A stretch of 64,000 nucleotides of DNA, from positions 17,413,221-17,477,220 of the forward strand of contig CM034607.1 of NCBI GenBank assembly GCA_020091685.1, written 5' to 3'. The number at the start of each line of letters is the position of its first letter. Position 1 is the first letter of the stretch. The stretch comes from Lutjanus erythropterus. Lineage: Eukaryota > Chordata > Actinopteri > Lutjaniformes > Lutjanidae. Positions 18,136-54,245 of this stretch are shown piece by piece. The notes beneath the pieces are model-generated. The model made no database searches. It was not told the DNA's origin and worked only from the letters and a program-made list of their open reading frames with translations. Made by a program: the position numbers and the translations under genes.

Positions 18136-36305
<18,170 letters not shown>

Positions 36306-36555: not shown

Positions 36556-39009
36556 ATGGCGGCACCTGTAAGCAATAGTTCAGACTGTTGGGGCGTCCCA
36601 GAGGTTTATAAACACCACGAACAGCGGAAAGTATGTATTTCTCGACCAAAATACAGAGAGGGAAGGAAAGCGAAAGCTGTTAAGGTAAGAATATGCTAAG
36701 TATCAATAAGAAAAACACAGTATGTATCAAGCTATGAGACGCTGTTACTCCTAGCTAGAGAGTAAATATCACGTACAGTGTTAATATACCGAGATCAGTT
36801 CTCCCTTTTTTTCTTTTTCTCTTACAAGATAGAAAGTTTACCCCGGAGCCCCTCATGTATATTCACTAGAATAATTTGACGCACTAGCATATTCTTTTCC
36901 ACCCCTACTTAGTTATGTGCAAGGACACCTCAAGAGAAGTGTGTTTGAAAAATATGAGATATGTATTAAAATATTTAAATACAGTGAATACAGACTATCC
37001 ATAACACATACACACATCAAGAGAGTGTGTTTTACTCTTGATGCATAAAGAAAATAAAATGCAGATTATGGTTAACTTAAATAATATACGTTACAAGTAT
37101 ATATAATATATATATATATGAATTATAAATAATAGAAAATATAAAACAAGCCTGACTAAGATCATAAAAAGAACAACAGTAGGCCTAGTCCACGTCTATT
37201 TTTGTCCTGTGCATCATCAGGTGTACACCATCAACTTAGAGTCTCGTTACGTGATGGTCCAAGGGGTCCCAGCCATCGGAGTGATGACAGAGCTGATCCA
37301 GCTGTGTGCCCTGTACGGAGTTGTGGAGGAGTACAGGCCCCTGGACGAGTATCCTGCAGAGGAGTTCACGGAGGTCTACCTTGTCAAGTTCCAGAAACTC
37401 ACCAGTGCCAGGTTCAGGAAGTGATAAACTTACCCAGTCCATTACACTGCAGTGGCAACATTAAAAAGACTTGCTCAGTGATTTTTGTTTAAACGTTTCT
37501 GTTTCAGAGCAGCCAAAAGACACATGGATGAAAAGAGTTTCTATGGGGGCGTGCTGCATGTGTGCTACGTCCCAGAATATGAGACAGTGGAAGACACCAG
37601 GCTGAAGCTGCAGGACAGGAGGAGATATGTAATCAGGGCTGTTCAGAATAAAGGTACATGTTCACATCAAGACTTACTCTTAAAAGGACAGTTCCCCCTA
37701 AAATCAGAAATGCATATTTTTCCTCTTACCTGTAGTGCTATGTATCCATCTAGACTGTGTTGGTCCTAGTTGCTGAGTTTTGGACATATTGGTAGTAGAG
37801 ATGCCTACCTTCTCTCCAATATGATTAAAGTAAGCGCCAAAAAATAGATTTCAAAAATTCAACAGAAATGTCTTTTTCCAGATAGTCCACAGACCTTGTT
37901 TTGAGCAGTTTCATGTAGGAACTACTTTCTTTCTAGATCGAAAGCAGTTTTGCAATATTATACTGCAGAATGAAAAGTAGTTCCTACGTGAAACTGATCA
38001 CAACAAGGTCTGTGGATAATCTTGAGTAATTGGAAAGTCATTTCTGAAAAGAAAAAATGGTGTTGAGTTTTCGTATGCATGTTCTTGGTGCTCCGAGCAC
38101 CACAAGCAGAGTGTCCTCTAATTCTGTGATATTTGAGAGAAGGTACATCTCTATGACCAAAATGTTCAAGACTTGGCACCTTACACCAAAAACAATCTAC
38201 ATGGATAAAAAAAAATTATTTGTATTTTTTGTTGTTGAAATTACAAATTAACCTGAACCATTTGTTGAAAGTGTTTTTTCTTTAATATTATTGTTACACA
38301 GCAAGAGAAAAGGATCAGAAGGAGGCTGTAAAGAAGGAGTCCATGTCATCAGACACAGCCACCACATCAGAGACAATCGTCACCAGACAAGATAAAACCT
38401 CTGACAGTGATCATACAGGGGAGACCTCAAACTTCAGGCATTATTCAGGCTTTCCTCTACTGCCTTTACCTCCCCAGGAATATCATTACCATGGACATAA
38501 AAATCAGCATGGGACTATAGCAACAGAGGACAAAATGGGGACATTGCACAATGTCATCACTGACCCAAAACAGGAACCAACACTGAGTTCAACCTCCAGC
38601 CAAACCTCTTCAGACAGAAGCACAGAACACAAACTAACCTCAAGTCAGTCTTCTGCAGTCAGATTTGTCCCACGGACCGCACACTTGGAGAACAGGAAAC
38701 GCAAGATGGAAGAGGCTGCGGAGCCCTCGCTGACTGACGTTAGCAGAAACAGTGAGCCACTTATTGGACCAAAGCTCCCAGAACCACCTAAACTAGACAT
38801 GGAGGACGAGTCGCTGAACACAACTGTGAGCCTGATCAGGAACACAATGAAACAGGTATACTGAAATTCAGAATAAAACAAAATCGTCTCTGTTGTCTAA
38901 TTGCCTCTATTCATGTCAGTAAAAACTGCTGTTTCATGATTCTCAGGTGGAATCGGTTCCCGACCTCAAACCAGTGGAGAAAAAAGTGAAACCACGTCGT
39001 CGGATTTGA
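36556..39009 (+). CDS. rbm48: Rbm48, RNA-binding motif protein 48 (complete, five coding exons)
   Basis: RBM48 is an RRM protein that works with ARMC7 in minor (U12-type) intron splicing. Coding exons are 36556-36684, 37221-37411, 37508-37653, 38302-38855 and 38947-39009; they total 1083 nt, 360 residues plus stop, with all phases compatible. Recalled human length is 367. Exon 1 (MAAPVSNSSDCWGVP) ends KYREGRKAKAVK. The RRM spans residues about 44-150, with VYTINLESRYVMVQGVPAIG, KRHMDEKSFYGG and LHVCYVPEYETVEDT. Exon 4 is a serine/threonine-rich, poorly conserved linker ending DDESLNTTVSLIRNTMKQ-like (DESLNTTVSLIRNTMKQ). The tail is basic (KKVKPRRRI). Intron 3 holds a truncated MITE. Confidence 0.93.
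37681..38213. mobile_element. Truncated palindromic MITE in rbm48 intron 3
   Basis: The left end TAAAAGGACAGTTCCCCCTA and the body GTGCTATGTATCCATCTAGA match the family at 14680-15490. The right arm is present to about AACAATCTACATGG but the outer right end is missing. Confidence 0.65.
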
Positions 39010-45700: not shown

Positions 45701-48264
45701 TGATCATAAAATAAACCAACCAGTCAAACATCCTCTTTAATGTCATAACCCCTCACACAGCAACTGCTGCCCTCCTACAAACCTACAAAATATCAGGAGA
45801 CAAATGAGATAGGGTTGAATCTCTAATCTCTCTCTAATCAGCACAGAATAGATAAATTTTAAAATGAGATCCATAAGCTTAAATTTGTCACATTATAAGC
45901 CTCTTTGTCACAGTGAGTCAAGCCTCCAGTTACCTACTGACTTATAGAAGACAGACGAAGACAAACATGTGAGTGAGATAATTTAAAAAGCACACTGGAC
46001 AACAACAGCCCAGAACTGAGAGGTGCTTGATAAGAGATAAGATCCTCTGTCTAGACCAGGCTGGTATTCACAAGGACTGCAACAGACGAGAACAAACCCT
46101 TACCAATAAAACTGGCCGCTGTTTTCAGAACAAGCTAACGATAAGAGTGTGGTCCCCTATATAGTTGCCTATTATATCATCTGTCACAACCATGCAATTT
46201 TTCGTTTAAAAGACATCTAATAGCCGTCTATAGACCTGACATTTAGACTAGAACCCAGCTAAATTTGGGCTGTCAACGAAGGTTTGGTAGACATCTAACC
46301 ATAATATAAGTACAGCCTAGCCATCAATTAGACAGCTACTAAATAACTACATATTAATCTCTGTCTTCATAGTTGATTTTATTAACATGATATAATGGCA
46401 TACATCCCACAAACTGTGGGAAAAAGCTTCAGTTTTAACACTGTTTTGACTAGAAGTGGGATAAACATAGCCAGGCTACAGCCAAGCCATTGAAATGATA
46501 ATAACTCACTTACTCGGTTTCACCGGATGGGCTTCAAGCAGACTACACATACCTGGTCCATGTTAGACCTAAATCGTATATGTATAGATGTATAGACCAT
46601 ATCAATAAAATTATACTATGAACATGATGGGATATTATCTATTTAAGAAGCTACATAAGCAAAAACTACAATGAAACGATTTTGGCTAGAAGTTGGCTAC
46701 AAATAGTTAGTCCAGTTGGGAGCTAGATCTTGGCTTCGTATGGATCATGACAGAAATTGAACCAGACATTTTGTAATCACTGTTAAATTTGCTTATGTGA
46801 TGGAATATCATACATCTCACAAGCTGCATGGGCAAAAACTAAATTTAACCACTTGTCCAATATTCTATACCCACTTCATGAAAGCTTATACATAGATGTT
46901 GATCTCTGTGAGTCCCTGCTCCTGTAAAACATCCATTTTCATTAATTCATTCGATCTTTATTTATGCCGTGACAAACATTGAGGTTTCCCTCATTTTTAC
47001 TAAAAAATAATAAATTAAATAAATAAACAGAACTGCAATTGTTTTGAGATTTTATATTTGTAAAAGCAAAAACAAATATTTGTTTGTAAGCTGCAATGTA
47101 TGTTTTATGTTAGCAATGTTATGTTAGCTCCACGGACGTCACCAAAATCACACAAACAAGAATCTACACAGTAAACAGCCTCCAGGCTTGTGTAACCCTG
47201 TACAGAATCTGAAGCCTTGATGAAGCTCAGTTTGTATGTTTGTGTGTGCAGCTGTGCACTTAGTAAGAGCTAAATGGTGAGTCTGGAAACTGACTGGACA
47301 TAAGTACTGGTGCGAAGAGACACTCACCGGTTCCACAGCTCAGACGAATCCCTCCCAGGACGTGTGTTTTTAACCCTTCACGCTGCCAGACAGTCAGCTC
47401 AGCACAGGCCTCTTTCAGGTCGCTGGTGTGAAAGCCATCGTACACCATGGTGTGGTTATAGGTCGGGCTGATGGAGCGCTTCACCATCCGAGTCTTCTGA
47501 CCACTCTGCCGACTTGCATCTGGGAGTATGTAGCTTGTGGGGTGTAGATTATGAGTATGAGACAATTCATTTCAGATTCAAACCAGAATTTGGTTAAATA
47601 TTGATGTTGAGGGTATACACATACAGATCTGATGTTTTTAAGAACATTTTAAAGCTACATGTATAAGTTTCCCTCATTCTGTGTACATAAGGTGATTTGG
47701 TAACTTGGTGGCAGCACGACAAACTATAAACAAAATACTGACGTATTATGACCTTAAAAAGGTTGTTATGTTAAGCATGTGAGCAAACACTTCCTTATTG
47801 ACACACCCAGCAGTTACAGAGCAGCATTATGATTCATTTGGAGGATTTAGTTTAACATTCACTCTTCTTTTAGCTCTGTTTTGGTCTCCACCAACTCCAG
47901 GAGGAAATATCAGGATCTTGAACTGCTAAATGCTCTATTGGCTTCACCAGCTACTTGCTAATTTGACCCTTGGGTGCAGATCCGAGGTCTGTAGGTTGAG
48001 CCGTTGTTAATATAAAATATTGATTATAGCAGCTTTGAGTTTGGAGAAGGATTATCATATAAAGATGCACATGAAGGTGGATAAAAATAAAAATGCCAGG
48101 TTGCTAGGTTGTATAACTGATGACAAAATATCAGGAAATATGTTGCAGAACTGACACACCTTCTTACAAAGGAGTCTATAGGGCCCCCTTTGTTGGACAG
48201 GAGACCTTGAGCCTCCCGAAGCCAGATGTGAAGCTCTCCTGTCAGAGGCAGACCGCCACCTTAA

Positions 48265-48320
<56 letters not shown>

Positions 48321-50422
48321 ATATTCGAGACAAATGTGATTGAGTTAAGACATAACCTGCATTTATGATGTCTGTGCTCTGCTCACCTTCAAATCCATCT
48401 GGGATGAACTTAATAGAGAGCAAGATGGTCCCACGGCTGTTAATGGAGTCTGGACTCAAATGAACCTGTGATGGGGGCAAAGGGGGGAGCAGAAATGAGA
48501 AAAAGATACAGGCAAAGGAAAAGAAACAAGAAGAAAGAGAAAGAAAAATCAGGGGAGAGGGAGGCAGAAGTGTGGAAGCAGGAAAAGATTAAGGTTACAT
48601 AAAACCTTAGTTGAAATTCACAGCATGTCTTCGTCTCCCTTCAGCTCTCCCAGACACAAGAGACACTCCTCTCTGTATTCTGTGTCTCCAACAAAGCTGC
48701 CAAAACTGCTGTCACACAGACACTCAGATACTAAACAAATGTAGATGCAGGCAGCATACTGTTTTGGTAAATATTTGTCTGGGAGTATTCACACTCGCAT
48801 GCTAATTTATGTGACTACATGATTGTGTATTTGCATTAAAGCGCTTTGTTTCTGTCTTCCCCTACCCGCGGCTGCAGGTCTTGCCACAGAGGCTGAGTGC
48901 AGGTCCAGTCCCAGAGACCCAGAGACACCTCCACCTCCCCCAGAAACACGTTCCTGCTCAGGGGCTCGGCGTGCCACACAGACAGGTTCAAGGTCCGGCT
49001 CCTGAGTTCTCCAATCCGCACTTTATACTACAAGAAAAGAACCAGGGGTCGTATCGCAGAAATGTACGACTTACGTTAAGATACGAAGAGCCTAAAATAG
49101 GAATTTTACCATGTTCCCCATGGAAGCAAATCATAATTAACGTTAGGAATTTTGTCTTATCTTACTTCATCCTATCTTATCTCAGGGTAAGAAATACTAA
49201 ACACTAAATCCAACATCACTTGACAACTTTTATGCCTGTTACCTAGCAACCAACACCACTTTTCTCATCTTGTCTAAGTAATTAACTTGGTAACTGTTGT
49301 TTTCTTTTTCTCACTGAAACATACAAAAACAAAGACATTCTTTTTGGGAAATTTACAACAATGTTCCTAACTTTAGGATAACTGTTAAGCTGTCCTTATT
49401 TTCACTTTTTCACCTGTAGTACCTAAATGACTATTTAGCTAATGGTAACAAATGGTAGTTTTCCCAAACAGCAGCTAACAGCAGTGCTCACTAACAGTAG
49501 CCACAGTAGTGTTAGAGAACACTAGCAAAAGGTAGAGTAAGGTAGCCAACTTTTTAAATTCATATGTTTTTAACAATGGATGCTGGTTACGGGAGTAACT
49601 GTGTCTGCTAAGTAAGCCCACTGTGCTTCGTTTATGTACCAAGTTAGTGTTTTTGTCAGTTTTTCAGAAAGAACATCTGGGTTTCTCTACAGATGTTATC
49701 AACACCTCTAACACAGAGGTTCAGCGGGGGCCGTGGTTTTGATTCCTCTATGCATCTTCATCCAACTCTCTCTCTTATTTCCTGTCTATCTTCAAGCTGT
49801 CCTATCAATTAAAGGCCAAAAAGCCCAATAAAGTGTGCTGGATCCTAGATAAGAGACATTAAAATTGATAAGCAATATTGGATTGAGTATTTAGGATTCC
49901 CTAACCTGAGAAGAAAGATGAGATAGGATAAGTTTGTTAGGGCTTGCTTCTGTGATACCAAATCTGTAATACCAAATTGGAAAAGGATCACAATTTTAGC
50001 CTTTTCCTGTCTTAAGATGGGAAGTCTCTGTTATACAGCCCCAGAATCAGACAGGTAACACATGAAAAGGATGGAAGGGGAAAGAGCAGGACAAAGCATG
50101 ACATGTTTTCTGCCACCATGAGAAGTAAACATAAATCTGGTCATTTATGGAAAGGATATCTTCAAGACTGGAGAAATAAGTGACTGCAGCACATGTTGCA
50201 GGACACGTGGACGAGAGCTGATGGAAAAATGTGCAGATGGGGGATTTCTGTGAAGGCTGACACTTATTATGTAAACGAGAGTGTCTCACTCGGAGCGTCT
50301 GATCATAGACTGGGTTTAGTGTCTTCTTCTTCACTGACGTTTTCTTCTTACTATGACTCGACTTGTCCGGCAACAGATAGGCTTTTACATATCTGTGAAA
50401 AACACACACACACACACACACG

Positions 50423-50462
<40 letters not shown>

Positions 50463-51007
50463 CCTTCTTTGACTGATTTTGTATGTGACTCTGTTGCTGC
50501 AGGATACACATTCACATGCACCGTCACTTACGGGTCGGAGCGGTTCTTGCGTGCTGAGGCGATGTCCTCACAGCGATATACTTTAACGTGCAGCTCCTCC
50601 TTCTGGGTGTCGTAAACCAATGAGAATTGGATGCGGCCCCTCACCTCCACCACTCCGAAGTCCCCCGAGCTGAACAGACTCATCATGCTTCCACTGAGCT
50701 ATAACACACACACACACACACACACAAAGAGCAGCGATCGGCTCCTACGTCATTGTCCAAAGCTGAGTCATCTTGCGTCGCTGGATAGCCAATTAATCAA
50801 ATGTGTGAGTGTGTGCATGCACGTATGCCTGCGCAAGTGTGTGCGTGAGTGTGAGTGTGTGCATGCGTGTGTGTGAGTGTGAGTGTACCGTGTAGCCAGA
50901 TTGAAGGCTGCCAGTGGAGCTGCTGGTTTTCAGAGAGGCTGGATCTGGTTCTGTCAGGCTGCTGCTCAGAGAGTCAGTGTCCCCATTGTGACCATCAAAG
51001 TCTTCCT

Positions 51008-51059
<52 letters not shown>

Positions 51060-51430
51060 NCTCCTGGAGGAAATATCAGGATCTTGAACTGCTAAATGCT
51101 CTATTGGCTTCACCAGCTACTTGCTAATTTGACCCTTGGGTGCAGATCCGAGGTCTGTAGGTTGAGCCGTTGTTAATATAAAATATTGATTATAGCAGCT
51201 TTGAGTTTGGAGAAGGATTATCATATAAAGATGCACATGAAGGTGGATAAAAATAAAAATGCCAGGTTGCTAGGTTGTATAACTGATGACAAAATATCAG
51301 GAAATATGTTGCAGAACTGACACACCTTCTTACAAAGGAGTCTATAGGGCCCCCTTTGTTGGACAGGAGACCTTGAGCCTCCCGAAGCCAGATGTGAAGC
51401 TCTCCTGTCAGAGGCAGACCGCCACCTTAA

Positions 51431-51510
<80 letters not shown>

Positions 51511-53612
51511 ATATTCGAGACAAATGTGATTGAGTTAAGACATAACCTGCATTTATGATGTCTGTGCTCTGCTCACCTTCAAATCCATCTGGGATGAACT
51601 TAATAGAGAGCAAGATGGTCCCACGGCTGTTAATGGAGTCTGGACTCAAATGAACCTGTGATGGGGGCAAAGGGGGGAGCAGAAATGAGAAAAAGATACA
51701 GGCAAAGGAAAAGAAACAAGAAGAAAGAGAAAGAAAAATCAGGGGAGAGGGAGGCAGAAGTGTGGAAGCAGGAAAAGATTAAGGTTACATAAAACCTTAG
51801 TTGAAATTCACAGCATGTCTTCGTCTCCCTTCAGCTCTCCCAGACACAAGAGACACTCCTCTCTGTATTCTGTGTCTCCAACAAAGCTGCCAAAACTGCT
51901 GTCACACAGACACTCAGATACTAAACAAATGTAGATGCAGGCAGCATACTGTTTTGGTAAATATTTGTCTGGGAGTATTCACACTCGCATGCTAATTTAT
52001 GTGACTACATGATTGTGTATTTGCATTAAAGCGCTTTGTTTCTGTCTTCCCCTACCCGCGGCTGCAGGTCTTGCCACAGAGGCTGAGTGCAGGTCCAGTC
52101 CCAGAGACCCAGAGACACCTCCACCTCCCCCAGAAACACGTTCCTGCTCAGGGGCTCGGCGTGCCACACAGACAGGTTCAAGGTCCGGCTCCTGAGTTCT
52201 CCAATCCGCACTTTATACTACAAGAAAAGAACCAGGGGTCGTATCGCAGAAGTGTACAACTTACGTTAAGATAGGAAGAGCCTAAAATAGGAATTTTACC
52301 ATGTTCCCTATGGAAGCAAATCCTAATTAACGTTACGAATTTTGTCTTATCTTACTTCATCCTATCTTATCTCAGGGTAAGAAATACTAAACACTAAATC
52401 CAACATCACTTGACAACTTTTATGCCTGTTACCTAGCAACCAACACCACTTTTCTCATCTTGTCTAAGTAATTAACTTGGTAACTGTTGTTTTCTTTTTC
52501 TCACTGAAACATACAAAAACAAAGACATTCTTTTTGGGAAATTTACAACAATGTTCCTAACTTTAGGATAACTGTTAAGCTGTCCTTATTTTCACTTTTT
52601 CACCTGTAGTACCTAAATTACTATTTAGCTAATGGTAACAAATGGTAGTTTTCCCAAACAGCAGCTAACAGCAGTGCTCACTAACAGTAGCCACAGTAGT
52701 GTTAGAGAACACTAGCAAAAGGTAGAGTAAGGTAGCCAACTTTTTAAATTCATATGTTTTTAACAATGGATGCTGGTTACGGGAGTAACTGTGTCTGCTA
52801 AGTAAGCCCACTGTGCTTCGTTTATGTACCAAGTTAGTGTTTTTGTCAGTTTTTCAGAAAGAACATCTGGGTTTCTCTACAGATGTTATCAACACCTCTA
52901 ACACAGAGGTTCAGCGGGGGCCGTGGTTTTGATTCCTCTATGCATCTTCATCCAACTCTCTCTCTTATTTCCTGTCTATCTTCAAGCTGTCCTATCAATT
53001 AAAGGCCAAAAAGCCCAATAAAGTGTGCTGGATCCTAGATAAGAGACATTAAAATTGATAAGCAATATTGGATTGAGTATTTAGGATTCCCTAACCTGAG
53101 AAGAAAGATGAGATAGGATAAGTTTGTTAGGGCTTGCTTCTGTGATACCAAATCTGTAATACCAAATTGGAAAAGGATCACAATTTTAGCCTTTTCCTGT
53201 CTTAAGATGGGAAGTCTCTGTTATACAGCCCCAGAATCAGACAGGTAACACATGAAAAGGATGGAAGGGGAAAGAGCAGGACAAAGCATGACATGTTTTC
53301 TGCCACCATGAGAAGTAAACATAAATCTGGTCATTTATGGAAAGGATATCTTCAAGACTGGAGAAATAAGTGACTGCAGCACATGTTGCAGGACACGTGG
53401 ACGAGAGCTGATGGAAAAATGTGCAGATGGGGGATTTCTGTGAAGGCTGACACTTATTATGTAAACGAGAGTGTCTCACTCGGAGCGTCTGATCATAGAC
53501 TGGGTTTAGTGTCTTCTTCTTCACTGACGTTTTCTTCTTACTATGACTCGACTTGTCCGGCAACAGATAGGCTTTTACATATCTGTGAAAAACACACACA
53601 CACACACACACG

Positions 53613-53652
<40 letters not shown>

Positions 53653-54193
53653 CCTTCTTTGACTGATTTTGTATGTGACTCTGTTGCTGCAGGATACACA
53701 TTCACATGCACCGTCACTTACGGGTCGGAGCGGTTCTTGCGTGCTGAGGCGATGTCCTCACAGCGATATACTTTAACGTGCAGCTCCTCCTTCTGGGTGT
53801 CGTAAACCAATGAGAATTGGATGCGGCCCCTCACCTCCACCACTCCGAAGTCCCCCGAGCTGAACAGACTCATCATGCTTCCACTGAGCTATAACACACA
53901 CACACACACACACACAAAGAGCAGCGATCGGCTCCTACGTCATTGTCCAAAGCTGAGTCATCTTGCGTCGCTGGATAGCCAATTAATCAAATGTGTGAGT
54001 GTGTGCATGCACGTATGCCTGCGTAAGTGTGTGCGTGTGAGTGTGTGCATGCGTGTGTGTGAGTGTGAGTGTACCGTGTAGCCAGATTGAAGGCTGCCAG
54101 TGGAGCTGCTGGTTTTCAGAGAGGCTGGATCTGGTTCTGTCAGGCTGCTGCTCAGAGAGTCAGTGTCCCCATTGTGACCATCAAAGTCTTCCT

Positions 54194-54245
<52 letters not shown>

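Follow-up and report, generated by a model that had tools for sequence, protein, structure and literature searches.

The window analysed here, 64,000 nucleotides of the Lutjanus erythropterus assembly (GCA_020091685.1, contig CM034607.1, positions 17,413,221 to 17,477,220 of the forward strand), carries a block of about 3.2 kb in two near-identical tandem copies inside a likely synaptotagmin-like gene. We consider it highly probable that this is a false duplication originating from an unmerged contig overlap, and that the real chromosome carries the block once. In the mechanism that we propose, the ends of two contigs would share about 3.2 kb, one contig stopping in an (AC)n tract and the other having its start about 3.2 kb ahead of that stop. 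During scaffolding or gap handling, the contigs would then have been placed end to end with one N between them and the overlap left unmerged. Sequencing reads would accordingly be expected to show one copy of the block.

Self-BLAST of the window gave one dominant match, a direct repeat that pairs positions 47895-51057 (copy 1, the putative left-hand contig end) with positions 51061-54243 (copy 2, the putative right-hand contig start). In this alignment 3,150 of the 3,187 columns are identical, that is 98.84% with gaps and 99.7% outside gaps, which confirmed the near-identical tandem duplication of about 3.2 kb claimed in a sequence-only reading of this DNA, whose outer coordinates (47893 and 54242) proved correct within 2 bases. 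The same reading had the blocks matching through exons, introns and microsatellites, and the alignment indeed crosses five coding exons, introns, AC tracts and one interspersed element; at the place that had been labelled a MITE, only weak inverted arms were detected (24 nt at 71% and 17 nt at 82%). The copies differ by 9 mismatches and 2 gaps, the latter accounting for 28 gap columns in total. According to the list of differences, the mismatches comprise one at 47899, 4 bases into the block, and eight internal substitutions, with an extra mismatch at 51058, just past the end of the BLAST match, and the copies also differ in length at two places, by 24 bp in an (AC)n tract and by 4 bp where the sequence is TG-rich.

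The place where the copies meet bears directly on the origin of the repeat. The junction falls at an N at position 51060; every other letter of the window is A, C, G or T, and this is also the one N in the 264 kb examined (the window plus 200 kb of flanks). Across 20 flank stretches, covering the 200 kb around the window, no further N was present. The two blocks had been described as meeting at the window's only N, beside a CA repeat, and this was borne out, as the pure (AC)25 tract in which copy 1 stops (51010-51059) directly adjoins the N. Its partner in copy 2 is an (AC)24 tract at 54196-54243, and the match stops 2 bases short of the N because the AC tracts differ in length. Copy 2 starts immediately past the N, and its (AC)24 tract continues into sequence that is absent after copy 1; just before the counterpart start in copy 1 (47895) lies sequence that is missing from copy 2. 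Thus, copy 1 has its right limit and copy 2 its left limit at the N, which is the pattern expected for two overlapping contig ends that were joined, and we infer that the N marks a contig join or scaffold gap. By arithmetic on these counts, the chance of an unrelated N lying 3 bases or less from the junction is about 7 in 264,000, a figure that leaves out the case in which the assembly broke because of a real duplication.

Assemblies may also fail at near-identical tandem repeats. The rival explanation is that the gene has really undergone a very recent internal tandem duplication, the N resulting from assembly failure at the duplication junction. The eight internal substitutions and two length changes are differences that a young duplication could have. 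We nevertheless regard this explanation as very improbable, given that the limits of the copies fall at the N, where an (AC)n tract also ends. Some scaffolders write a single N for a predicted overlap. Our literature search, which included the available text of PMC8110574 and PMC5368935, returned no statement of this convention. The paper describing the CSA pipeline, in the part available to us, reports that other gap closers leave some gaps unclosed, probably from overlapping repeat sequence at contig ends, and that part contains nothing linking such unclosed gaps to this genome.

The gene that contains the block is read from the minus strand. In each copy we found five coding exons with AG/GT splice sites, adding up to 628 nt, and these 628 coding bases are identical between the copies. 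Exons e1 (phase 0 in, 0 out; 50889-51005 in copy 1 and 54075-54191 in copy 2) and e5 (0 in, 1 out; 48387-48465 and 51577-51655) were delimited by their splice sites and open frame; exons e2 (0 in, 2 out; 50532-50698 and 53722-53888), e3 (2 in, 0 out; 50290-50392 and 53480-53582) and e4 (0 in, 0 out; 48866-49027 and 52056-52217), assigned to the first C2 domain, were recognized by splice sites and the Pfam C2 match. Together, e1-e5 encode a C2 domain (Pfam PF00168, E 1e-21). Outside the block, exon e6 (47328-47519, minus strand), with entry phase 1, forms part of a second C2 domain, the frame that holds it matching Pfam C2 with 28.9 bits against a cut-off of 22. Among the best 60 of 80 matched sequences, the two best solved matches were synaptotagmin-7 and synaptotagmin-like protein 4. 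These matches, together with the C2 matches on e1-e5 and on the e6 frame, make a synaptotagmin-like identity of the gene likely; it may be sytl1, the paralogue named in the sequence-only reading. The two C2 domains in tandem looked for in an Slp/SYTL protein are present, an arrangement that also occurs in synaptotagmins and is hence not specific to Slp/SYTL. Two upstream reading frames were scanned with the N-terminal Slp homology domain in mind, and no Pfam match was obtained in them. The order of the exons suggests that the repeated domain is C2A. A literature search for exon duplication in synaptotagmin-like genes returned only a review on dysferlin.

Other candidate coding sequences were seen in the window. 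On the minus strand, a reading frame at 25405-25686 matches the Pfam AAA ATPase family (43.7 bits), and another at 28572-29120 gives an AAA ATPase match just under the curated cut-off (20.7 vs 21.2); these frames may belong to a PEX1-type gene. On the plus strand, two adjacent open frames at 37122-37766, in which no Pfam match was found, may encode an RBM48-type protein, which they resemble.

The splice phases of the duplicated exons provided a second line of evidence. The e1-e5 cassette has entry phase 0 and exit phase 1, the latter being the phase that e6 needs at entry. In transcription order copy 2 is the first copy. A single copy joined to e6 gave an open frame with no stops; both copies read in series gave 14 stops in 482 codons, and the first of these, at codon 213, is reached after 209 codons of the first copy, one codon spanning the join and two more. 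A true exon-cassette duplication that is read fully should have the same entry and exit phase, and the cassette of 628 nt has 0 and 1, respectively. Because the frame shifts, joining all exons of both copies would not be predicted to yield a protein in which C2A is present twice in complete form. This phase test argues against a fully read duplication, the full reading of both copies breaking the frame, but it would not by itself exclude a real one with exon skipping. Single exons of one copy can be joined in phase to single exons of the other in 13 ways, all from e1-e4 and all omitting e5 of the first-read copy; such joins would preserve the frame, and skipping all five exons of one copy would bring back the normal protein. 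As the phase of the cassette is asymmetric, a real duplication would entail either truncation or exon skipping, and we give very little credence to a real, very young duplication of the first C2-domain exons that shortens the protein before the second C2 domain or has its exons skipped.

Copies of the block elsewhere in the genome were sought with 3,108 bases of copy 1 as query against the whole assembly (937.6 Mb in 444 contigs); 40 of 1,472 candidates were scored, with at least 98 matches, and the counts are lower bounds. Among these 40, two matches were near full length, both of them in this block, and the remaining ones listed were either 65-88% identical to parts of the interspersed element or short simple-repeat matches, some of them inside the block. 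The interspersed element itself was matched at no fewer than 39 other places in the scored candidates (40 of 1,472). A query of 167 C2 residues found 55 matches in the genome (104 of 104 candidates scored), none of them above 60% identity outside the block. The assembly artefact proposed in the sequence-only reading is thus supported on several sides: the 264 kb contain a single N, which lies at the junction; a dinucleotide tract terminates copy 1; the doubled cassette breaks the frame; and no further near-full-length copy was among the genome-wide matches listed.

In a self-comparison of the 264 kb (simple repeats masked, 88% identity, at least 300 bp), a single further repeat emerged, a pair of 651 bp in inverted orientation with 95.7% identity. 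A large AT-rich inverted repeat occupies positions 20110-21659 of the window; its arms, of about 650 bp, are 95.7% identical and 249 bp apart, and it contains internal direct repeats spaced about 142 bp.

Returning to the false duplication, it had been proposed that the artefact consists of two alleles in series. This stands as one sub-type of artefact, but it is not the sole one, the other being an overlap of a single haplotype with consensus errors. The distribution of the substitutions bears on both. Six of the eight internal substitutions lie within an 85-bp stretch of copy 1 (49062-49146), within or at the edge of the interspersed element, and when 8 sites were placed at random 200,000 times, this concentration never arose, the 85-bp width having been picked after inspection of the data. 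A contig overlap does not by itself explain the cluster.

The bases at the substituted sites were scored against other genomic copies of the element, a comparison in which 4 of the 8 internal sites could be scored (the alignments did not reach 49062 and 49068, and 50834 lies outside the query). At site 49084 the copy 2 base occurred in 3 of 3 alignments to other genomic copies, at site 49133 in 3 of 6, with the copy 1 base in 0 of 6, and at site 49429 in 2 of 2 and 3 of 3 alignments. Site 49146 had the copy 1 base, in 5 of 6 alignments with copy 1 as query and in 4 of 6 with copy 2 as query. At site 49119 the base followed whichever copy served as query. The element thus agrees with copy 2 at three of the four scorable sites and with copy 1 at the other, a result that fits two alleles and would also be compatible with polishing errors from misplaced reads.

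Under the heterotype sub-type, in which two parental alleles would have been placed serially, clean substitutions would be found in addition to length differences in simple repeats, as is the case here, and the division of the four scorable sites suggests that neither copy is simply wrong; that just 2 of the 8 internal substitutions fall outside one 85-bp stretch is, on the other hand, uneven for two alleles. On balance we incline slightly towards this origin. Our confidence is more tentative for the homotype sub-type, in which both contig ends would derive from the same haplotype; the element would then contain errors of consensus or polishing, and the simple repeats would carry length errors. 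The clustering of the substitutions in or at a many-copy element, where reads may have been misplaced, is consistent with it, as is the confinement of the length differences to simple or TG-rich repeats, and its published form, about as long as one read, occurs at the boundaries of contigs. Against this, the base usual for the element is not consistently in the same copy at the four scorable sites.

False duplications in vertebrate assemblies have been described in PMC8081667 (Nature 2021), which, in the part of the article available to us, divides them into homotype and heterotype forms and notes that they can be mistaken for exon duplications. The homotype form is reported there near contig boundaries, with a length of about one read, and shows up after scaffolding as tandem copies with an intervening gap; one partial false duplication, in GABRG2, involved four of the ten exons. 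The present case resembles those in its near-identical tandem copies separated by a gap, and differs from them in that the gap is a single N and in being known from sequence alone.

The available text of a second study, PMC9516828 (Genome Biology 2022, 23:205), names as criteria a read depth that is halved in heterotype and very low in homotype cases, the presence of a gap between the two copies, read pairs that are discordant or spanned, and k-mers specific to one haplotype (1-copy). The gap between a pair on one scaffold is represented here by the single N, which probably stands for a gap. The study also defines false exon gain, for which at least one complete coding exon should lie in a duplicated block of the same gene; here there are five in each copy, and the likeness extends to the doubling of complete coding exons inside one gene with a gap between the copies. 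Whereas PMC9516828 uses read depth and discordant pairs, our case was judged on the assembled letters themselves. That text also mentions a true tandem duplication, specific to one allele, that showed haploid depth, and a finding of half depth would thus be insufficient on its own to refute a real duplication.

In summary, near-identical repeats that meet at an N, combined with an exon-phase test, offer a quick screen for errors of this kind that works without reads. A one-base N may escape programs that seek longer gaps. For the synaptotagmin-like gene of L. erythropterus, a gene model built on this stretch would likely be split or frameshifted, and the doubled first C2-domain exons most likely represent an ordinary assembly error and would not constitute a new gene structure.
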